Below are positions 11,434 to 22,450 of a DNA stretch of 64,000 nucleotides, one piece after another (positions within the stretch are counted from its first letter, which is position 1; the number at the start of each line of letters is the position of its first letter). The stretch covers positions 514,956 through 578,955 of the forward strand of contig NZ_CAJQTX010000004.1 of NCBI RefSeq assembly GCF_907163085.1. Reading direction: 5' to 3'. The translations under genes and the position numbers were made by a program. Origin of the DNA: Candidatus Accumulibacter sp. ACC003 (GTDB taxonomy: Bacteria; Pseudomonadota; Gammaproteobacteria; Burkholderiales; Rhodocyclaceae). The notes under the pieces are model-generated. The model had not been told where the DNA came from. It searched no databases and saw nothing but the letters and a program-made list of their open reading frames with translations.

Positions 11434-11829
11434 ATGGCATACAGCGTGAAGGTTCTGGATCACTATGAAAACCCGCGTAATGTGGGTTCCTTTGGCAACG
11501 AAGAGGAGGGCGTGGCGACCGGTATGGTTGGTGCTCCCGCGTGTGGCGACGTGATGAAACTGCAGATCAAGGTCGGCAAGGGGGGCGTCATCGAAGACGC
11601 CAAGTTCAAGACCTACGGTTGTGGTTCGGCGATCGCCTCGTCGTCGCTGGTCACCGAGTGGGTCAAGGGCAAGACCGTCGAGCAGGCGCTGGACATCAAG
11701 AACACGCAGATCGCCGAAGAGCTGGCTTTGCCGCCGGTCAAGATTCATTGCTCGATTCTTGCCGAGGATGCGATCAAGGCGGCGGTCGCCGATTACAAGA
11801 AAAAACACGCCGAGCAGGCCGTCCCCTGA
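11434..11829 (+). CDS. iscU: Fe-S cluster scaffold IscU
   Basis: 131 residues. The three cluster cysteines C37, C63 and C106, the release residue D39 and H105 are present ([32 protein letters not shown]), as is the LPPVK motif (99-103) recognised by HscA. It is the scaffold on which IscS sulfur and iron are assembled into [2Fe-2S] and [4Fe-4S] clusters before transfer by HscB/HscA. Follows AAGGAGAAG closely. Confidence 0.98.
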
Positions 11830-11881
11830 GATGGCCAAAGTCCGATCAACGGTAGCAGACGCAAAACAGCAGGAGGTTTTC

Positions 11882-12884: not shown

Positions 12885-14786
12885 ATGGCCTTATTACAGA
12901 TAGTCGAACCCGGCGAGTCAGCCGCGCCACACGAACACCGGCTGGCGGTTGGTATCGATCTCGGAACGACCAACTCGCTGGTGGCGACGGTGCGCAGTGG
13001 CCTGGCCGTGGTGCTGCGCGACGAACTCGGCCGACCGCTGCTGCCGTCGGTGGTCCGCTACCTGGCCGACGGCAGCAGCGAAGTCGGCTACGAGGCGCAG
13101 GCCGGGCAGGCGCTCGACCCACGCAATACCATCGGCTCGGTGAAACGCTTCATGGGGCGCGGTATCGCCGACATTGCTGGCCGCGAGGCTATGCCCTACG
13201 TTTTCGACGACGCCCCGGGGATGCTGCGCATCGACACCGCCGGCGGGCTGAAAAGTCCGGTCGAGGTATCGGCGGACATCCTGCGGACGCTGCGTTTGCG
13301 CGCCGAGGCGTCGCTGGGCGGCGCGCTGCTGGGCGCGGTGATTACCGTTCCCGCGTACTTTGACGAGGCGCAGCGGCAGGCCACCAAGGATGCCGCAAAA
13401 CTCGCTGGATTGCCCGTCCTGCGGCTGCTCAACGAGCCGACCGCGGCGGCGATTGCCTACGGACTCGACAACTCCGCCGAGGGCATCTACGCGGTCTATG
13501 ACCTCGGTGGCGGCACCTTCGATATCTCGATCCTCAAGCTGTCGCGGGGAATCTTCGAGGTGCTGGCGACCGGTGGTGACTCGGCGCTCGGTGGCGACGA
13601 CTTCGACCACCGCATCTTCTGCTGGATTCTCGAGGCTGCCAAGCTGCGGCCGCTGTCCGTCGAGGACGCCAGCGTGCTGCTGGCGCGCGCCAGGGAAGCC
13701 AAGGAGTACCTGACCTGCCACGGTGTCGCGCCGATCAGCGGGAGGCTGAACAGCGGTGAGGTCGTCGACCTGCAGCTGAGCACCGAGATCTTCGCCGAGA
13801 TCACGCAGACGCTGGTCGCCAAGACCATGCAGCCGGTCAAGAAAGCGCTCCGCGATGCCGGCTTGTCGGTCAGCGACGTCAAGGGCGTGGTGATGGTCGG
13901 CGGCTCGACGCGCATGCCACAGGTGCAGCGCGCGGTCGGCAAGTTCTTCCGCCAGGACCCCTTGAACAATCTCGACCCCGACAAGGTCGTCGCCCTCGGT
14001 GCGGCGACGCAGGCCAACCTGCTGGCCGGCAATCGCGCTGCCGGCGACGACTGGCTGCTACTCGACGTGATCCCGCTGTCGCTGGGACTCGAAACGATGG
14101 GCGGTCTGGTCGAGAAGATCATCCCGCGCAATTCGACGATCCCGACGGCGCGCGCGCAGGAATTCACCACCTTCCGCGACGGTCAGACGGCGTTGGCCAT
14201 TCAGGTTGTTCAGGGTGAGCGCGAACTGGTCAGCGACTGCCGTTCGCTGGCGCGTTTTGAACTGCGCGGAATTCCGCCGCTGGTCGCCGGCGCGGCGCGC
14301 ATTCGGGTGTCTTTCCAGGTCGACGCCGACGGTCTGCTGGCGGTCAGCGCGCGCGAACAGACGTCTGGCGTCGAAGCCAGTATCGTCGTCAAGCCGTCGT
14401 ACGGATTATCCGACGACGAGATCGCGACGATGCTCAAGGACTCGCTGGCGCACGTCAAGGACGACGCGCTGCAGCGTGCCTTGAAGGAGTCGCAGGTTGA
14501 CGCGCGGCGTTTGCTCGAAGCGGTGCGGGCGGCGCTTGCCGCCGACGCCGACCTGCTCGCGGCCGACGAGCGCGCGCGGGTCGACAGCGACATCGCCCGA
14601 CTCGAGAGCGCCGCGCTGGCTGACAATCGCCGGCAAATCATGTTGGCGATGGACGATCTCGAGGCCGATACCAAGGATTTCGCCGCACGGCGGATGGACA
14701 AGTCGATCAGGCGGGCTTTTGCCGGTCGCCATATCAACGAACTCGAAGGCGATTCGGTGGCTGCGAAAACGGGGGAAGTGGCATGA
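12885..14786 (+). CDS. hscA: Hsp70-type chaperone HscA
   Basis: 633 residues. The Hsp70 signatures are clear: [28 protein letters not shown] and [14 protein letters not shown], with the substrate-binding domain from about residue 400 ([13 protein letters not shown]). The long stretch before the first signature ([20 protein letters not shown]) is typical of HscA. It drives cluster release from IscU. Its stop overlaps the fdx start by 4 bases (ATGA), so the two are translationally coupled. Confidence 0.97.
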
Positions 14787-15124
14787 CCCAGATCATCGTC
14801 CTGCCGCACCTCGAACTGTGTCCAGACGGCAGCGTCTTCGACGCCCGGCCAGGCGAGTCGCTGTGCCAGAATCTGCTCGAGAACGGCATCGCCATCGAGC
14901 ACGCCTGCGAGATGTCCTGCGCCTGTACGACTTGCCATGTCGTCGTTCGTGAAGGCTTCGACTCGCTCGATCCATCCGATGAACTCGAGGACGATCTGCT
15001 CGACAAGGCCTGGGGTCTCGAGCCGAACTCGCGCCTGTCGTGCCAGGTGATGGTCACCGCGACGCCATTAACGATCGAGCTTCCGCGCTACTCGATCAAC
15101 ATGACCAAGGAAGGCAAGCGATGA
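14783..15124 (+). CDS. fdx: ISC-type [2Fe-2S] ferredoxin
   Basis: 113 residues of adrenodoxin type. Cluster ligands C42, C48, C51 and C87 lie in [17 protein letters not shown] and RLSCQVMV, the same spacing as E. coli Fdx. It provides electrons for cluster assembly. Overlaps both hscA (4 bases) and iscX (4 bases). Confidence 0.97.
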
Positions 15125-15315
15125 AATGGACCGACATCAACGATCTCGCGGTCGAACTCGCCGAGGCGCATCCCGAAGTAGACCCACTGACGATCAACTT
15201 CGTTGACCTGATGAACTGGGTCATGGCCTTGCCGGGTTTCGCCGACGACAGCCGGCACTGCGGCGAGAAGATTCTCGAGGCGATCCAGCAAGCCTGGATC
15301 GACGAGCTGGCATGA
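15121..15315 (+). CDS. iscX: IscX (YfhJ) protein
   Basis: 64 residues from the ATG at 15121, overlapping the fdx stop by [26 protein letters not shown] and FADDSRHCGEKILEAIQQAWIDE are characteristic of the family: a small acidic protein that binds IscS and modulates desulfurase activity as an iron-dependent regulator. A longer upstream reading exists in the same frame but is the shadow of fdx. Confidence 0.95.
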   Translation: MKWTDINDLAVELAEAHPEVDPLTINFVDLMNWVMALPGFADDSRHCGEKILEAIQQAWIDELA

Positions 15316-15701
15316 AACCCGACGACACGGGTGGCCAGCAGCGCAACGTCCTCGGCGGCCTGCTTGGTTCGTGCAGCGAAAAGCCGATGACCGGTTTCTT
15401 CCGCGACGGCTGCTGCAACACCAGCGACGAGGATTTCGGCAGTCATACCGTGTGCATCGTGGCCACCGGCGAATTCCTCGAATTCTCGCGGGCACGCGGC
15501 AACGACCTGTCGACGCCGCGGCCGGAGTTCGGCTTTGCCGGCCTGCAAGTCGGCGACCGCTGGTGCCTGTGCGCCGAACGCTGGCGCGAAGCACTGCTCG
15601 CCGGCAAGGCGCCGCGGGTAGTCCTCAACGCCACCAACGAAGCGGCGCTGCTGATCGCCAGCCTCGACGACCTCAAGCGTCACGCCATCGATTTGAACTG
15701 A
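15312..15701 (+). CDS. DUF2237 family protein
   Basis: 129 residues, starting at an ATG that overlaps the iscX stop (ATGA). NVLGGLLGSCSEKPMTGFFRDGCCNT and the C-terminal ATNEAALLIASLDDLKRHAI match DUF2237, whose members have four conserved cysteines or more and are of unknown function. Tight coupling to the isc operon is notable: it suggests a role linked to Fe-S chemistry or a cluster-containing protein, but this is inference from position only. Confidence 0.85.
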   Translation: MKPDDTGGQQRNVLGGLLGSCSEKPMTGFFRDGCCNTSDEDFGSHTVCIVATGEFLEFSRARGNDLSTPRPEFGFAGLQVGDRWCLCAERWREALLAGKAPRVVLNATNEAALLIASLDDLKRHAIDLN

Positions 15702-15800
15702 AGCAGTCGCGGCAGCGGCGTCACGGGCTGCTCGCTCGGTGCTTCATGCCAGCGTGCTCGGCCATCGCTTCGACCGACATCGCCGTCTGCGGCTTTCTGA

Positions 15801-15820
15801 GCGGAGCACCGGTGCTCCGC
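15801..15820. repeat. Perfect 20-base palindrome
   Basis: GCGGAGCACCGGTGCTCCGC equals its own reverse complement. It lies in the 225-base gap between the convergent DUF2237 and sco genes. There is no T tract on either side, so it is not a classic intrinsic terminator, but it could act as a shared stop hairpin or be a REP-like element. The rest of the gap shows nothing else. Confidence 0.6.
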
Positions 15821-15926
15821 GTGCAATCCTTGAAGTGCCGCGTCAGCGCTACGCACTCGCCTGCGTGCGGCGGCCAGTGCGACGAGCGCGGCTAGAAGAC
15901 TGACGGTGTTCTCCTGTCATTGCCGA

Positions 15927-16562
15927 TCATGCGGGATCGCGTCGCGCCAGCTGCTGACGTATGGCAGCAAGGATTTCCGACGCCGGCGTGGCGTACGGCA
16001 GGCGCGTCGCCAATCGTCCGCGGGAGTCGACCACGTAGGTTTCAGTCGAGTGGTCGATGGTGTATTGGCCTTCGGCGTTGGCCGGCTGTTTTCGATAGCT
16101 GACGCCGTACTGCTTGGCGAGCGTTGCGATTTCCTCCGGCGTACCGCTCAGGCCGACGATCGCCGGGTGGAAAAAGGGCGCGTATTCTCGCAGAACGGCG
16201 GTGCTGTCGCGTTCGGGGTCGAGTGAGATGAAGATCGCCCGCACGCGCTTTGCCTCGGCCTCTGTCAATCCGGAAAGCGCTTGCGCGACCAGCGCCAGCG
16301 ACGTTGGGCAGACGTCGGGGCACGAGGTGTAGCCAAAGTAGATCAAGACCACCTGCCCGCGATAGTCGGCGAGCGCGACCGGCCCTTGCGGTCCCTGCAG
16401 CGTGAAGTCTCCCGCCGCCGGGCTGCTTGCCGGCGGCAAGCGGCTGTGCGACTGAATGGCGGTAACAGCCCGCGGCGGCAGCGGTTCCCAGAACGCGACG
16501 ACGAAGACCAGCGCAGCGCTCAGAACAACCAGCAAGGCCATCGGTGCCCAGCGTGTTTTCAT
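15927..16562 (-). CDS. SCO1/SenC-type copper chaperone
   Basis: 211 residues. One N-terminal membrane segment (MALLVVLSAALVFVVAFW) anchors a thioredoxin-fold domain in the periplasm. The copper site is complete: C81 and C85 in YTSCPDVCPTSLA and H171 in YTIDHSTETYVV. Sco proteins deliver copper to the CuA site of cytochrome oxidase, and in denitrifiers also to N2O reductase. It follows the FixH-like gene by 15 bases on the same strand and is divergent from the nos remnants, so it may once have served NosZ as well. Confidence 0.93.
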   Translation of the reverse strand: MKTRWAPMALLVVLSAALVFVVAFWEPLPPRAVTAIQSHSRLPPASSPAAGDFTLQGPQGPVALADYRGQVVLIYFGYTSCPDVCPTSLALVAQALSGLTEAEAKRVRAIFISLDPERDSTAVLREYAPFFHPAIVGLSGTPEEIATLAKQYGVSYRKQPANAEGQYTIDHSTETYVVDSRGRLATRLPYATPASEILAAIRQQLARRDPA

Positions 16563-16577
16563 CGCTGCCGCTTCGTC

Positions 16578-17039
16578 TCAGTGACCGATCAGGAAGCGGA
16601 ACGGCACGGCGACCAGCGCCTTGCCGGTATCGACGAGTAGCGTGGCGTGCCATTCCATGCGGCCGGTGATGCATACCGGCAGGCTGGCCTGCCCAGAAAA
16701 GCGGCCGTCAGGAAGTTTTTCCAGTGCCGGTCGGTTATAACCCATTTTCATTTCCGTGCCCGTGAAATCGACTTCGAGCTTGCGCACCTCACCGCCCCTG
16801 ATCGACGCCCGCAGCTGCAGTGCCTGCAGCGCCGGGATCGGCCGTGGTTCGATAGAGAACTCGATTTGCATGCCGTCGGGCAGCGTCGCCACACAGGCCT
16901 GCTCGCTGAGCTGGCAGCTCGACAGCGGCAGCGTGACGTCGGTCTGCGGGTTGAACAGTGGCGCCAGCTTGTAGGCGATGACGCCGAGGATGGCGAGCGC
17001 CAGCAGGATGGCAGTGTCGAGCAGCAGGTTCTTGGTCAT
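16578..17039 (-). CDS. FixH/YtkA-like membrane-anchored protein
   Basis: The ATG at 17039 gives 153 residues; the frame is open upstream but only this part has structure. An N-terminal membrane helix (ILLALAILGVIAYKLAPLF) is followed by a periplasmic beta-sandwich domain. The motif TGTEMKMGYNRPALEKL and the later SLPVCITGRMEW resemble YtkA/FixH-type proteins linked to copper enzyme assembly. It forms a two-gene unit with the sco gene. The exact name is uncertain. Confidence 0.75.
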   Translation of the reverse strand: MTKNLLLDTAILLALAILGVIAYKLAPLFNPQTDVTLPLSSCQLSEQACVATLPDGMQIEFSIEPRPIPALQALQLRASIRGGEVRKLEVDFTGTEMKMGYNRPALEKLPDGRFSGQASLPVCITGRMEWHATLLVDTGKALVAVPFRFLIGH

Positions 17040-17252
17040 CGAGCGGGCGGCGGTGTGATCGGTGTTGGCAGTGGGGCGGTGACAGTGGGGCCGGCGCTGT
17101 TGTGCAGGCCCGGCTTGGCGAAAATTGATGCACCTCGAATTATCGTGCAGCGCTTGTACGCACAATGTGCGGCATATTGCCGCAGTGGCGTCATGGCGTG
17201 GGGCAATGGAGAGGGCACCGCTAGCCGCCAATTGATCACGGGGAGAGGGGTG

Positions 17253-17505
17253 ATGGAGTTTCGAACGAAGCAGGTCGCGTCGATGCGGCTAGCCGGATTC
17301 GGCGTTGCCGCTGCCGGTAGCGTCCATGCTGCCGAGTCTCTGCAGGACGTGATGAAGCGCAGGTGGCTGTCGCAACAGACTTGCTGGCGGCATCAAAGAC
17401 CTATGTCTCGACTGGCAAACGCGACAAACTCGTCGCCTCTTCGTCCGGCGGTCAGTCTGGACAGGTCTGCGATTTCTCGAGCGCCGCCATGCAGTGCATT
17501 CGCGC
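17253..17505 (+). pseudogene. nosZ: nosZ remnant (N-terminal ~80 codons, frameshifted)
   Basis: The ATG at 17253 follows GGGAGAGGGG and opens a Sec-type signal peptide (ending around GSVHAAES) without a twin-arginine motif, as in clade II N2O reductases. LQDVMKRRWLSQQ then continues, after a frameshift near 17365, as DLLAASKTYVSTGKRDKL and SSGGQSGQV, a conserved part of the NosZ beta-propeller. After the degraded SAAMQCIR (normally VPSMR) the homology stops; the remaining ~550 residues, including all CuZ and CuA ligands, are gone. No active N2O reductase can come from this locus. Confidence 0.75.
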
Positions 17506-17526
17506 TGGCCGACACCAGGCCGTCGT

Positions 17527-17943
17527 TCCTGGAGATCTGTGCCGGGATGCTGCTGGCGCAGCCGCCGCTCCTCAAGGCCAAGGAAGACGACCCCGAACGA
17601 CCGTTCAATCTCGCGGAGCGCGCCGGTCTGGCGTACCCCGAGGTGTGCCTCGCGGTTCGGGGCAAGGGCTGCATCTGCCAGGCGCGTGGTCACCTGCCCT
17701 ACGCGGCGGTCGATCGCTGGCAGCTGCTGCCGGCGCGTGATCATCCCTACGAGTGAGTGCGACCTCTGTGAGCTCTGCGTCAGCGAGTGTCCGATCAAGG
17801 ACGCGATCCGCATGGGAGAGTGGATCGCCGCCGACGGTAGCAAGTAGTACCGACCGCAGCTTGTCGAACAGTGCGGCGAGATAGTCTACCCGGTCGAGCC
17901 GGTGGCGATCGTCGTCGATCAGCGCCAGCCCTGGAGAGTGTGA
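17527..17943 (+). pseudogene. Ferredoxin-like 4Fe-4S protein remnant (NosG/NapG-like)
   Basis: Three pieces follow each other in changing frames. KAKEDDPERPFNLAERAGLAYP through VDRWQLLPARDHPYE ends at a stop at 17754-17756; CDLCELCVSECPIKDAIRMGEW continues in the next frame up to an in-frame TAG at 17845-17847; then YRPQLVEQC and VYPVEPVAIVVDQRQPW to a stop at 17943. One CxxCxxC motif survives, but the second cluster motif is damaged: the expected CxxCxxxC..CP has lost residues and a Cys reads as Tyr. The place between nosZ and nosH fits the NosG position in clade II clusters, but the family name is tentative. Confidence 0.6.
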
Positions 17944-18387
17944 TGAGTCTTCTGGGTCGTTTTTGCCTTGTTGGAGGTGTGGTCAGTGGCTATGGCCTTT
18001 TCGAGACCATTTCGTCGGCCGGTATCGTGTCAAGGGCGCTGATCGACGGACCCTCGTTGGCGCTCGGCTGGCTCCTGCTGCTGGTCTTCGAAGTCGTCTA
18101 CTCGCGCCGCGCCTGCTGCCGCTACGTCAGCCCGATTGGCTTGACCTATGGTATCGTGGGCGCCGTTTCGTCGGTGCGCGCCCAGTACCGCCTGGACAAG
18201 TGCTTTCACGAAGGTAACTGCCGCACGGCCTGCCTGGTGGCGTACGCTCTCGACGTGCTGATCAAGGGCGGGGCCGCCGCTTGACCACCCCGGTCGGACC
18301 CAACTGCACGCGTTGCCGGCTGCCTGGCGACGTTTGCCCGAGCGGCACGCTGGTCTTGGACGCAAGGGCTTGAGCAAGCTGCGCTGA
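17943..18387 (+). pseudogene. nosH remnant (NapH-like membrane ferredoxin)
   Basis: Starts at the ATG at 17943 and covers about two membrane segments (FCLVGGVVSGYGLFETI, LALGWLLLLVFEVVY), then CRYVSPIGLTYGIVG and YRLDKCFHEGNCRTACLVAYALDV. Normal members have four membrane segments and about 270-290 residues. In the CxxxCP motif the second Cys is now Ser. A frameshift around 18283 separates the last cluster region (TTPVGPNCTRC, DVCPSGTLVLDA), and a second one separates the terminal GLSKLR. The protein would be a quinol-oxidising partner of the N2O reductase system; here it is inactivated. Confidence 0.7.
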
Positions 18388-18396
18388 AGGGTGCGA

Positions 18397-18940
18397 ATGA
18401 TCCGCTGCGAAAACGTCGCCAAGGACTACAGGATGATCGCTGTACTCGACGGCGTCGAACTCCACGTCGAGCCGCGACCCTTCAACTGCCTGTCCGGGGG
18501 GACGAAGCAGAAGCTGCTGAGCACCATCGCCCCTGGCCGTCATCCACAGGTGCTGGTGATGGACAAGCCGGCCGCCAATCTTGATCGCCGAGGTGCCGCA
18601 CATCTTCTTTGCGCGGCTCGCCGAGCGACTCGAGAACGCGACGATGATCATCGCCAGCCACCGTTTCGACGACGGCCTGGTGCTGGTCAACCGGGTGCTC
18701 GAAATGGGCAGCGGCAGAATTGTTCTCGACGATCGGGTTGCCGAAGACCAGAAGATTTCGGCGCTGTTCCAGGTGCCCCTGACGCTGGCGCGCGCCGACG
18801 CGGCAATGGCCTCGAGTGGCACGGTAGGTACGGTGTCTGGGCCGGACCGCCTGCGCTTCATGGGCATGGTGTCGCGCTACGTCGGTCTGCTGTCACGGAT
18901 CGAGATGAAGGAAGTCGACCCGGCGGTCACCTTGCAGTGA
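18397..18940 (+). pseudogene. nosF: nosF remnant (ABC ATPase, Walker A deleted)
   Basis: From ATG 18397, ENVAKDYRMIAVLDGVELHVEP reads as the start of a NosF-type ABC ATPase, then jumps directly to the signature region LSGGTKQKLLSTIA and Walker B (VLVMDKPAANLD, with Lys where Glu is expected). About 100 codons including Walker A are deleted. Near 18585 the frame changes and the C-terminal half continues as ERLENATMIIASHRFDDG and VNRVLEMGSGRIVLDDRVAE to the stop at 18940. NosF normally pairs with NosD and NosY for copper-site maturation; this copy cannot bind ATP. Confidence 0.75.
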
Positions 18941-18953
18941 GGTACGGATAGCA

Positions 18954-19427
18954 ATGAAACGACGACGTTTTCTTGAGGTTCTTCCGGCGGCGACGATCGG
19001 ACCCTGTTTGCGGCCGCTGCTCGGCGTCGGTGCGGCTTGGTCTGTGGTCGGCTGCAGCGGTGAGCCAAGCAGCGGTCCGGCCCAGGTCAAGTGGGATCGC
19101 GACGCCGACCCACGCTGCGGGATGATCATCAGCGACAAACGTTTCGCCGCGCAGATTCGCGATCCCGAGGGCCGGGCGTGGAAGTTCGACGATATCGGCT
19201 GTGCGATGTTCTGGCTGTCGCAAAGGCCGTTCAATGAGGAAACAGCGAACACCGAGTACTGGGTCGCCGATTACCGCATGGGCGGCTGGATCGACGCCCG
19301 CCAGGCACACTATCTGCCAGGCAAGAAGAGCCCTATGGGCTACGATTTTGCGGCGCTCGCCCGTCCAGAACCCGAGAGCGTGTCGTATCAGGAGATGAAA
19401 CAGCGCATCCTGGCACGCGGCAAGTGA
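18954..19427 (+). CDS. nosL: NosL-type copper lipoprotein
   Basis: 157 residues, the usual length, without interruption. A lipobox ends at C34 (WSVVGC), although the leader is basic (MKRRRFLE) and longer than usual. The copper-binding CGMIIS motif starts at C55, followed by FDDIGCAMFW (C83) and SPMGYDFAAL, all typical of NosL. It binds Cu(I) for the CuZ site of N2O reductase. It is the only open reading frame of apparently full length in an otherwise ruined nos cluster, and lies between the nosF and nosY remnants. Confidence 0.8.
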   Translation: MKRRRFLEVLPAATIGPCLRPLLGVGAAWSVVGCSGEPSSGPAQVKWDRDADPRCGMIISDKRFAAQIRDPEGRAWKFDDIGCAMFWLSQRPFNEETANTEYWVADYRMGGWIDARQAHYLPGKKSPMGYDFAALARPEPESVSYQEMKQRILARGK

Positions 19428-19437
19428 ACCGGGCGTA

Positions 19438-19785
19438 ATGAATTTCCTGCTCCCGACCGCCCGCCTGGACATCGTCGAGTCGCTGCGTGCGCGCCGGTTC
19501 ATGCTCTACAGCCTGCTTTTCGGCGGTATCGTCGCCTTGCTCTTCGCTTTCGGCCTGACCGAGTCGCGCGAGTTCGGCATCGGCATGCTGACTTCGACGC
19601 TGGCGCGTAGCACCGCTGTTGTGCAGGGTGCCGCCTTCATTGTCTGGCTGGGCATGCTGCTCTATCCTCTGGCCACGGCCTGCTTGGGGCGGCTAACCGA
19701 GCGGCCTGGCACGCGGCTGTTGAATGCTGGAATAATGGCAGGTGTAGGGGCGTGCCGAACGCACGGCAGGTACCGTTTTCGTTAA
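19438..19785 (+). pseudogene. nosY: nosY remnant (truncated ABC permease)
   Basis: The first ~50 residues (LPTARLDIVESLRARRFMLYSLLFGGIVALLFAFGLTESRE) match the start of NosY, which should reach about 270 residues and six membrane helices. The next part (STAVVQGAAFIVWLGMLLYPLATACLGR) looks like a later helix joined after an internal deletion, and the frame then ends in unrelated residues at 19785. 25 bases separate it from nirF, so decay or deletion has brought nos and nir genes together. Confidence 0.7.
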
Positions 19786-19810
19786 TGCGCCAATGGCGCC
19801 CGTTTGAGTG

Positions 19811-20983
19811 ATGAGCATGATGAGAAGACTTTTCGCCCTGTTGTCGATAGTGCTCGTTGCCGGCTGTGCCGCACCGCCGCTGCGTGGCACCGGCGACCTC
19901 GGGCTGGTGATCGAACGCGCCAGCGGCCACGTCAGCCTGGTCGACACCAGCCACGGCGTACCGTACGCACGTATCGCAGGACTGGGCGACCTCTCGCACG
20001 CCTCGGTCGTCTACTCGCGCGACGGGCGCTACGCTTACGTCTTCGGCCGCGATGGCGGCCTGACCAAGGTCGATCTGCTCGAGGCACGGATCGTCAAGCG
20101 CGTCCTGCAGTCGGGCAATGCCATCGGCGGCTCGATTTCACAGGATGGCCACATCGTCGTCGCCCAGAACTACAAACCAGGCGGCATCAAGGCCTTCGAC
20201 TCCGAAACGCTGGAGCTGCTCTCCGAAGTGCCCGCCGAGTACGCGCCGGGAAGTTTTTCCAAAGTTGTCGGCCTGACCGATCTTCCCGGCAACCGCTTCG
20301 CCTATGCACTCTTCGATGGTGGCGAGATCTGGGTCAGCGACTTTTCCGATCCCCGCCATCCGAGCACGCAGCGCTACCCGGCCGGTGTGCAGCCTTATGA
20401 CGGGTTGGTGACCCCCGACGGGCGCTATTATCTCGCCGGACTGTTCGGAGAGGATGGCGTGGTCCTGCTCGATACCTGGCAGCCGGAGAAGGGAACACGG
20501 CGAATTCTTGACAACTACGGGCGCGGCGAAGAGAAGCTGCCGGTGTTCAAGATGCCGCACCTGCGCGGTTGGTCGATGGCGCAGGGCAAGGCCTACCTGC
20601 CGGCGGTCGGGCGGCACGAGGTGCTGGTCGTTTCCGGCAGCAGCTGGCAGGAAGTCGGTCGCATCGAGGTCAAGGGGCAGCCGGTGTTCGTCATGGCGCA
20701 GCCCGATGGCCGGCAGGTGTGGGTCAATTTCGCCTTTCCCGACAATGGCTGGGTACAGGTGATCGACACGCTGAGCGGCAAGGTGGTGCGCAGCTTCGAG
20801 CCGGGCAAGGCGATCCTGCACATGGAGTTTACGCCGCGCGGCGAACACGTCTGGCTTTCCGCCCGCGACGACAACAAGGTGGTGATCTACGATACCGCGA
20901 CCTTCAGCAAGATTGGCGAGTTCGCCGCACAGGCGCCGAGCGGCATCTTCTTCACCAGCCGCGCGCAGCGGACCGGATTTTGA
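19811..20983 (+). CDS. nirF: Heme d1 biosynthesis protein NirF
   Basis: 390 residues from the ATG at 19811; a nearby ATG six bases on is also possible. The lipobox LVLVAGC puts the protein in the outer part of the cell envelope. The rest is an eight-bladed beta-propeller of cytochrome cd1 type: DGRYAYVFGRDGGLTKVDL, NAIGGSISQDGHIVVAQNY, GNRFAYALFDGGEIWVSDF, PDGRYYLAGLFGEDG, KMPHLRGW. NirF is needed for a late step in heme d1 synthesis (dehydrogenation of the propionate side chain region is NirN's part). It heads the intact nirF-nirDL-nirG-nirH series. Confidence 0.92.
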   Translation: MSMMRRLFALLSIVLVAGCAAPPLRGTGDLGLVIERASGHVSLVDTSHGVPYARIAGLGDLSHASVVYSRDGRYAYVFGRDGGLTKVDLLEARIVKRVLQSGNAIGGSISQDGHIVVAQNYKPGGIKAFDSETLELLSEVPAEYAPGSFSKVVGLTDLPGNRFAYALFDGGEIWVSDFSDPRHPSTQRYPAGVQPYDGLVTPDGRYYLAGLFGEDGVVLLDTWQPEKGTRRILDNYGRGEEKLPVFKMPHLRGWSMAQGKAYLPAVGRHEVLVVSGSSWQEVGRIEVKGQPVFVMAQPDGRQVWVNFAFPDNGWVQVIDTLSGKVVRSFEPGKAILHMEFTPRGEHVWLSARDDNKVVIYDTATFSKIGEFAAQAPSGIFFTSRAQRTGF

Positions 20984-20988
20984 GCGAA

Positions 20989-21969
20989 ATGAGCGAACAG
21001 GCGCTCGACTTCCGCCTGCTCAACGACTTCCAGAGAGACTTCCCGATCTGTCCGGCGCCTTTTGCCGAACTGGCGGCGCGGCTTGGTGTCGCCGAGAGCG
21101 CCGTTTTACGGCTGCTCGAGGCGTTGCGTCGGCAGGGCAAGATTGCCCGCGTCGGCGCCGTTTTCGCACCCAAGCGCATCGGCGCCAGCACGCTGGCGGC
21201 GATGGCCGTGCCGCCCGAGCGCTTGGCGGCGGTAGCCGAGACGGTCAATCGCTTTCCCGAGGTCAACCACAACTACGAGCGTGAGCACCGCTACAACCTC
21301 TGGTTCGTTGTTACCGCCGGTTCGGAAGGGCGCCTGCTGGCCGCCCTGGGAGCCATCGAACTGGCCACCGGTCATCCGTTGCTGCGCCTGCCCTTGCTGC
21401 AGGAATACCACATCGACCTCGGCTTTTCGCTCGACGACCCAACGCACAAGTCACCGCCAACCAGCGCTCGCCGGCAGGCTTTTGTGCCACCGCGACCGCT
21501 CGACGAGTTCGAGCGGCGCCTGGTGATGGCCTTGCAGGAAGGCCTGCCGCTGTTCATCAGACCGTTCTCGGTGCTCGCCAGCCGTGTCGGCTGCGACGAG
21601 AGCGAAGTTCTCGAACGCATCCGCCGTTGGTGCGCCGAGGGCATCATCAAGCGCTTCGGGGTGGTCGTCAGGCACCACGAACTCGGCTATACGGCCAACG
21701 CCATGCTGGTGCACGACATCCCCGACGACGCCGTTGGCGAGGTCGGCGAGGCGCTTGCCCGCGAGCCCGCCGTCACCTTGTGTTATCAGCGCCCGCGCGT
21801 GCCGCCGGAATGGCGCTACAACCTGTTCTGCATGATCCATGGTCGGCTCCGCGGCGAGGTCGAGGAACGCATCGCTGAACTGCGGGTCCGCTTGCGGCTT
21901 GGCGATTACGCGCACGACGTCCTTTTTTCGCTGACGCGTTTCAAGCAGGGCGGCGCACGTTATGCGTGA
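20989..21969 (+). CDS. Siroheme decarboxylase NirDL (fused NirD and NirL)
   Basis: 326 residues from the ATG at 20989. Two similar AsnC/Lrp-type modules lie in one chain: residues ~1-150 (NirD-like, LLNDFQRDFPICPAPFAELAARLGV, VNHNYEREHRYNLWFVVTA) and ~165-326 (NirL-like, LVMALQEGLPLFIRPFSVLASRVG, CYQRPRVPPEWRYNLFCMIHG). Such fusions are known from several denitrifiers. With NirG and NirH it removes two acetate carboxyl groups of siroheme to give didecarboxysiroheme. It begins just after nirF and overlaps nirG by 8 bases. Confidence 0.92.
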   Translation: MSEQALDFRLLNDFQRDFPICPAPFAELAARLGVAESAVLRLLEALRRQGKIARVGAVFAPKRIGASTLAAMAVPPERLAAVAETVNRFPEVNHNYEREHRYNLWFVVTAGSEGRLLAALGAIELATGHPLLRLPLLQEYHIDLGFSLDDPTHKSPPTSARRQAFVPPRPLDEFERRLVMALQEGLPLFIRPFSVLASRVGCDESEVLERIRRWCAEGIIKRFGVVVRHHELGYTANAMLVHDIPDDAVGEVGEALAREPAVTLCYQRPRVPPEWRYNLFCMIHGRLRGEVEERIAELRVRLRLGDYAHDVLFSLTRFKQGGARYA

Positions 21970-22450
21970 GCGTGCCGCCAGCGCCAGCATCGACGCCATC
22001 GATCGGGCGATCATCGATGGCCTGCAGGGTGGCTTTCCGATCTGCGAGAGGCCCTACGCGGCCGTCGCCGCACAACTCGGGATTGCCGAGAACGAACTCA
22101 TCGAACGTCTGCAGGCGATGCTCGAGGCGCGCGTGCTGACGCGCTTTGGCCCGATGTTCCAGGTCGAGCGTATGGGCGGCGCTTTCGTCCTCGCCGCGAT
22201 GCGCGTTCCCGAAGCCGATTGGCAGAGAGTGCTCGAGGTGGTCAATTCCTTCCCGCAGGTGGCGCATAACTACCGCCGCGAGAGCGACCGTAACTGCGAT
22301 TTCAACATGTGGTTCGTGCTCGCCACCGAGACCGCCGACGGCATCGCTGCCGCGGTTCGCGCAATCGAGGATGCCAGCGGTCTGGCGGTCTTTGCCTTCC
22401 CCAAGCTGCAGGAATACTTCGTCGAAATGAAGCTGGCGGTGCGGCCATGA
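21962..22450 (+). CDS. nirG: Siroheme decarboxylase subunit NirG
   Basis: 162 residues. One AsnC/Lrp-type module: DRAIIDGLQGGFPICERPYAAVAAQLG, then RFGPMFQVERMGGAFVLAAM and the paired motif VAHNYRRESDRNCDFNMWFVLATE, and LQEYFVEMKLAV. Assigned to NirG rather than NirH by the NYRRE...FNMWF form. Overlaps nirDL by 8 bases and nirH by ATGA, so the set is translationally coupled. Confidence 0.85.
   Translation: MRERAASASIDAIDRAIIDGLQGGFPICERPYAAVAAQLGIAENELIERLQAMLEARVLTRFGPMFQVERMGGAFVLAAMRVPEADWQRVLEVVNSFPQVAHNYRRESDRNCDFNMWFVLATETADGIAAAVRAIEDASGLAVFAFPKLQEYFVEMKLAVRP

Follow-up and report, generated by a model that had tools for sequence, protein, structure and literature searches.

The window, a stretch of 64,000 nucleotides from the genome of Candidatus Accumulibacter sp. 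ACC003 (5.39 Mb in 13 contigs, listed as 100% complete), carries directly upstream of nirF a decayed clade II nos operon in which one gene, nosL, has probably been retained by selection, most likely for a copper client other than N2O reductase. The decay of the operon is well shown and unexceptional in this genus; what merits further attention is the constrained orphan nosL.

Remnants of a nos operon upstream of nirF

The intact nos operon of a congener (locus L093, genome G013) was used as the reference. Its gene order is nosZ, cytochrome c, diheme cytochrome c, NosB-like, nosD, nosG, nosH, nosF, nosL, nosY, ResA/TlpA-like and nirF, where the NosB-like membrane protein, which has no informative family match, is presumably NosB by its position and length. 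By blastn of positions 15000-22000 and tblastn with the L093 proteins, six nos genes were found in order in the window: nosZ, nosG, nosH, nosF, nosL and nosY. The best tblastn E-values per gene span 2e-17 (nosY) to 5e-92 (nosL) and the matches are colinear across 2.5 kb, far past chance expectation. An earlier note, made from the DNA letters alone, had named five of these remnants (nosZ, nosG, nosH, nosF and nosY), and tblastn recovered all five on the plus strand in operon order. Its description of the cluster as ruined holds for these five broken genes and fails for nosL, which is whole and constrained and had been overlooked.

The nosZ remnant (17253..17467, plus strand) comprises approximately codons 1-72 with one frame change, the remainder being deleted. 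The tblastn match (17256-17503; E 7e-22), which covers codons 1-42 in one frame and 43-84 in a second, slightly overruns the deletion junction at 17462-17467. Since only about 70 codons are left, the remnant falls far under the cut-off of the TIGR04246 profile (625 bits), matching positions 1-38 with E 7.7e-4 in the genome search and 1.1e-4 when searched alone. The remnant of nosG, encoding a NapG-like ferredoxin (17462..17943, plus strand), lies in three frames (codons 125-139, 140-235 and 237-299; 17462-17934) and has lost several of the cluster cysteines, as had been noticed before. The C-terminal part of the NapH-like nosH (17947..18372, plus strand; TIGR02163 E 1.1e-18) is preserved in two frames (codons 183-284 and 280-314; 17976-18367). 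The nosF remnant (18397..18940, plus strand) has a changed frame and lacks approximately 300 bp, and tblastn aligns codons 1-24 in one frame and 162-290 in another (18397-18937). Approximately codons 22-123 are deleted and with them the Walker A motif, the loss of which is confirmed by the alignment with L093. In the nosY remnant (19438..19669, plus strand; tblastn extent against L093 19438-19665), codons 1-47 are joined to codons 155-184 through a deletion. It is followed by a scar (19670..19781, plus strand), where the end of nosY and the ResA/TlpA-like gene are gone and about 90 bases have no match in L093.

Compared with L093, the window has five deletions of about 6.3, 0.5, 0.3, 0.3 and 0.8 kb, plus frame changes inside nosZ, nosG, nosH and nosF detected by tblastn. 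According to blastn, a single 6.3-kb deletion (L093 3623 to 9971) removed the 3' part of nosZ, both cytochrome genes, the NosB-like gene, nosD and the 5' part of nosG, which accounts for the absence of nosB, nosD and the cytochrome genes reported earlier. In L093 the ends of this deletion have in common a short near-repeat around GCAGG, which would fit slippage or microhomology repair. The others correspond to L093 10508 to 11023 (about 0.5 kb, blastn), 11541 to 11845 (about 0.3 kb, nosF with Walker A), 12998 to 13306 (about 0.3 kb, nosY) and 13419 to 14216 (about 0.8 kb, the end of nosY and the ResA-like gene, leaving the unaligned bases of the scar).

The ferredoxin partners NosG and NosH, typical of a clade II nos operon, are thus present as remnants, and NosB, NosD and the c-type cytochromes are absent in the window and present in L093. 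The clade II layout proposed in the earlier note is borne out by intact congeners and by the nosG and nosH remnants, the nosZ piece itself giving only the weak TIGR04246 match. Judged from its sequence, the block is a remnant of a clade II operon and no longer a working one.

Counts of gaps in DNA alignments were dropped as a measure of frame damage, as blastn scatters gaps in intact flanks too: two intact upstream genes have 10 and 22 gaps against L099 and L093, and nosL has eight non-triplet gaps against L099 and none against L093 or L098. Frame damage was judged from tblastn frames instead. It is scarcely credible that the operon is intact in the cell and only its assembly is faulty. Frame-broken COX1 copies on contigs C3 and C13 of the same genome reveal indels elsewhere, and hence the single-base shifts in the nos remnants may be sequence errors. 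The kilobase deletions are of another kind: base-calling can produce neither these nor the drifted substitutions. Moreover, nosL and nirF are each in a single frame within the same stretch, and the contig is 630 kb long.

Both flanks of the block are preserved. The nirF gene for heme d1 synthesis (19808..20983, plus strand; PF02239, Cytochrom_D1, E 1.7e-102) is intact; the heme d1 genes had been described as untouched, and nirF, the sole nir heme d1 gene tested, is indeed one open and constrained frame. Each of the 28 genomes has a close homologue, which is broken into two pieces in G003, G008 and G026; in G003 the gene is interrupted by approximately 110 extra bases (L118 12524-12637). Upstream, on the minus strand, lie a divergent gene for a SCO1/SenC-family copper chaperone (15927..16562; PF02630 E 1.2e-39) and, beside the nos promoter, an unnamed conserved gene (16578..17051) that was aligned in ten congeners and matches nothing in Pfam or NCBIfam at E-values up to 0.1.

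A script scan and alignment revealed an FNR-like box upstream of nosZ, TTGATGCACCTCGA (17125..17138, plus strand), which has two mismatches to the FNR consensus, and only one in G013, G010, G015 and G022. The palindrome TGCGGCATATTGCCGCA (17168..17184), which lies between nosZ and the divergent genes and may be a regulator site, has its only exact copy in the window genome here. Its core ATTGCCGC is identical in 20 aligned regions out of 27 examined, the other seven having no alignable match, and also occurs in the nosZ-less genomes G007, G011 and G022. An FNR motif upstream of nos in UW-LDO-IC, and conserved flanks of nosZ, are mentioned in a passage of PMC6446978. No FNR-like box with at most two mismatches was found by the script scan for nosL itself, the sole one in 15500-21100 being that upstream of nosZ; promoter support for nosL is poor.

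Constraint on nosL between decayed neighbours

The nosL gene (18954..19427, plus strand) lies between the dead nosF and nosY genes and is complete, with a single frame of 157 aa that is 84% identical to its L093 counterpart (tblastn). Its product is a predicted lipoprotein-type copper chaperone. It narrowly passes the gathering cut-off of Pfam PF05573 (24.3 against 24.0 bits), has no match in the NCBIfam profile search, and gives nothing useful in a sequence comparison with solved structures (best E 0.78). The alignment of NosL proteins shows that the window protein keeps the CGM motif, of the copper-binding CXM type, and, at its N-terminus, a hydrophobic stretch with a final Cys, as expected for lipidation. 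Only one of 67 columns invariant among 15 congeners is altered in it, from K to R. In the nosL tree the window copy has a branch of 0.12 and its nearest row is that of G022 (support 90/83), which argues against recent import from a sampled nosZ-bearing congener.

Selection on the genes of the block was assessed by counting window-private changes at codon positions 1, 2 and 3, at sites on which six or seven relatives all agree. Columns absent in any relative were excluded, which drops most of the signal-peptide part of nosL in the main count and in three of the repeats with other sets of relatives; the fourth repeat retains it. The numbers of changes at the three positions are 17/127, 18/137 and 6/54 in nosG; 22/129, 8/131 and 6/64 in nosH, elevated at position 1 only; 22/148, 22/162 and 11/70 in nosF; and 3/67, 8/76 and 3/41 in nosY. 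The nosZ piece (5/58, 2/63, 4/23) is too short for a verdict and was kept outside the pool. Pooled, the four neighbours have 120/977 changes at positions 1 and 2 versus 26/229 at position 3 (p=0.82). This absence of third-position bias, beside a constrained nirF (3/320, 3/346, 6/114), agrees with the loss of selection at the locus suggested in the earlier note.

The nosL gene has a different profile (3/95, 3/109, 12/54). Its 18 changes in all are distributed as 6/204 at positions 1 and 2 versus 12/54 at position 3 (p=1.6e-5), and at positions 1 and 2 it differs from its dead neighbours with p=1.7e-5. The latter contrast was reproduced in four other sets of relatives (p=8e-6, 5e-5, 3e-6 and 3e-5). 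In the fourth of these, with the signal peptide kept, nosL has 15/286 changes at positions 1 and 2 versus 28/102 at position 3 (p=1.3e-8), the neighbours have 145/1056 versus 61/371 (p=0.20), and the two differ with p=3.3e-5. By single positions, the window nosL in this set (11/141, 4/145, 28/102) resembles the nosL of the nosZ-bearing genome G015 (10/118, 7/121, 19/82), and hence appears to be constrained about as much as nosL in an intact operon. The G022 nosL is also biased to position 3 (7/204 versus 7/54, p=0.012). The yardstick is not clean, as loose patterns were observed in two genes that are presumably in use, nosL of the nosZ-bearing genome G012 (13/108, 5/114, 9/63) and the SCO gene of G013 (16/87, 15/108, 14/56). 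Nevertheless, a gene that stays open and third-position-biased while nosF and nosY drift is likely to be still selected as a protein.

nosZ and nosL across the genus

No complete nosZ over cut-off was found elsewhere in the window genome with the profiles TIGR04246, TIGR04244 and NF052460, which cover the clade I, clade II and L-type enzymes; the search for a second nosZ recommended in the earlier note thus came out in favour of its reading. Matches to NosZ positions 501-576 on contigs C3 and C13 are not NosZ: that on C13 is a cupredoxin-like protein of 183 aa just upstream of a broken COX1 gene, and that on C3 is in the equivalent place next to a broken COX1 copy. With the nos cluster wrecked and no other nosZ over cut-off, respiratory N2O reduction has almost certainly been lost, a loss observed for the genes and deduced for the phenotype.

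Among the 28 genomes, including that of the window, 13 have a full nosZ over the TIGR04246 cut-off, three (G003, G008 and G018) have a nosZ that is interrupted by the end of a contig or by a break in the frame, and 12 have none. The joint tree of nirF and hscA requires a minimum of six changes of nosZ state, both when the three split genes are counted as nosZ-bearing and when they are omitted, and so gain is not distinguishable from loss. G013 has two hscA genes on different contigs (L220 and L246), which share 91% and 90% identity with the hscA of the window genome. The nos operon of G021 (contig C43; L095 and L123) is in two parts about 26 kb apart, with nosZ to nosD at approximately 73.8-79.8 kb and nosG to nirF at approximately 42.1-48.0 kb.

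By tblastn, nosL was found in only two of the 12 nosZ-less genomes, that of the window and G022, and is therefore not generally retained, with the proviso that a missing match in a draft genome is no proof of absence; G011 has a 34% homologue. Conversely, G002 has nosZ and no nosL was found in it; the contig that carries its nosZ (C191) stops within nosH or right after it. In G022 nosL is full-length, the breakpoints differ from those of the window, and the diheme cytochrome gene is retained; tblastn found no remnant of nosZ, nosG, nosH or nosF there. The two genomes are not sisters in the joint nirF and hscA tree, yet their nosL genes group together; they may share a first inactivation.

Homologues of the diheme cytochrome c (67-85% to L093) occur near nirF in six of the 12 nosZ-less genomes (loci L106, L108, L109, L110, L113 and L115), directly upstream of it in G005, G007, G011, G020 and G027, and with nosL between in G022 (L106). 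The G022 gene evolves faster than those of nosZ-bearing relatives (11/206, 8/220, 9/99), still with proportionately more changes at position 3. A perfect FNR-like box is situated just 5' of the diheme cytochrome gene in intact operons (L093 6183, L098 6301, L099 11990). This internal box may explain why the gene often outlasts nosZ.

Phosphorus removal in wastewater plants is driven by Accumulibacter, a genus whose denitrification is debated. The text of PMC8407102 cites Gao 2019 for some type II genomes having lost nosZDFL, PMC12766714 reports that 40 of 136 MAGs carry nosZ and puts missing denitrification capability down mostly to gene loss, and nosZ as listed species by species in PMC9238405 is patchy in the genus. 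The window resembles these cases in that nosZ is gone and the nir cluster kept. Unlike such presence/absence scores, as given in those passages, it displays a half-way decay with breakpoints and one gene still constrained. A broken nosZ is on record for Accumulibacter too: PMC8407102 cites Wang 2021 for a strain of clade IC whose gene contains an internal stop codon. That strain is described with a single stop, in contrast to the five deletions across the operon here. As nos loss is both recurrent in the genus and published, the decay itself is ordinary. The locus illustrates how the last step of denitrification disappears while nir genes remain.

NosL is termed a 'dedicated copper chaperone' for CuZ of N2O reductase in a passage of PMC6530538, and its dedication to CuZ assembly is repeated in PMC7558416; as worded in PMC6769254, NosL is found mostly, and so not only, in betaproteobacteria with N2O reductase. 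The window protein is similar to the NosL described in PMC6530538 in its Pfam family, N-terminal lipidation-type signal and CXM copper motif. It differs in being kept without nosZ, nosD and working nosF and nosY, and both it and its congeners lack the extra Cys of CXXCXM, the motif given there for clade II. In the open-licence literature we found no paper pairing Accumulibacter with nosL, and, among the matches listed for nosL without nosZ, no title plainly on point. The surviving gene raises the question of what a 'dedicated' CuZ chaperone does in a cell without NosZ; given that description, a second client is testable.

We propose that a Sec-type (clade II) nos operon was inherited directly upstream of nirF and that the lineage then inactivated it stepwise by deletions and frame changes, nosL probably remaining under selection as a protein inside the dead block while nosF and nosY on either side drifted. 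A membrane-anchored, Cu(I)-binding NosL, as predicted from the motifs, could now have a client that is not NosZ; candidates would be a haem-copper oxidase or the general traffic of copper in the periplasm. A broader version is more tentative: NosL in this genus might be no dedicated N2O-reductase chaperone, having been kept for a second copper client both in the window genome and, with different breakpoints, in G022.

Ordinary decay throughout, with nosL whole by luck or the last gene to lose its use and bound to decay, would fit the ten of 12 nosZ-less genomes in which tblastn found no nosL ortholog, suggesting that the gene is dispensable in the long term. We regard it as unlikely, since luck does not produce a third-position bias and the neighbours, in the same lineage, accumulated changes at positions 1 and 2 so much more freely. 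That recombination replaced nosL with the copy of a nosZ-bearing relative once the operon was dead, so that its constraint was acquired elsewhere, seems more improbable still. It is hinted at by the nirF and hscA trees, which place clade members differently, and by the grouping of the window nosL with that of G022, unlike the joint tree; against it, the exchanged tract must span nosL and end within both dead neighbours, and the window nosL has no close counterpart in any sampled nosZ-bearing congener. Constraint would equally result if nosL alone had come from an unsampled lineage. Retention by selection for another copper client has its own weak point, in that the main test rests on 18 changes in nosL, and is nevertheless the explanation that we favour.

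Nitric oxide as the expected denitrification product

The nirS gene of the window genome is intact, with a 634-aa frame containing Cytochrom_D1. A qNor protein of G010 (NorB cytochrome c-like domain E 6.8e-69) used as a query had no match in the window genome. The same query matches ten of the 28 genomes searched, seven with near-full-length copies of 80-100% identity and three with matches of 29-32% only, which may be cNor. The PF00115 profile, which also finds the G010 qNor, recognised no qNor or cNor in the window genome; it detected CtaD and CcoN, a third oxidase in two frame-broken copies and, below cut-off, a COX1-like protein of 477 aa. A respiratory NO reductase of the qNor or cNor kind, necessary for a complete denitrifier or N2O emitter, was thus not found, and N2O as a respiratory product is unsupported. 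NO would be the expected end product of NirS in this genome.

The earlier note had argued that with the loss of nosZ the strain may emit N2O. The loss of nosZ while nirS and nirF are intact speaks for this, but the queries that detect qNor in relatives found neither qNor nor cNor here, the two kinds of NO reductase that the search covered, and we consider the N2O emitter reading very doubtful. Loss of nosZ alone need not make an N2O source when a recognised NO reductase is missing as well.

We do not claim that qNor and nosZ are associated in the genus, as independent pairs are too few (4 pairs, median p 0.25); all seven genomes with a strong qNor match also have nosZ, the copy in G008 being frame-broken. 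The two frame-broken COX1 copies of the window genome lie near the ends of contigs C13 and C3 (L213 and L214). Their breaks are at differing profile positions, approximately 245 and 210, and each copy adjoins a cupredoxin-like frame of 193 aa.
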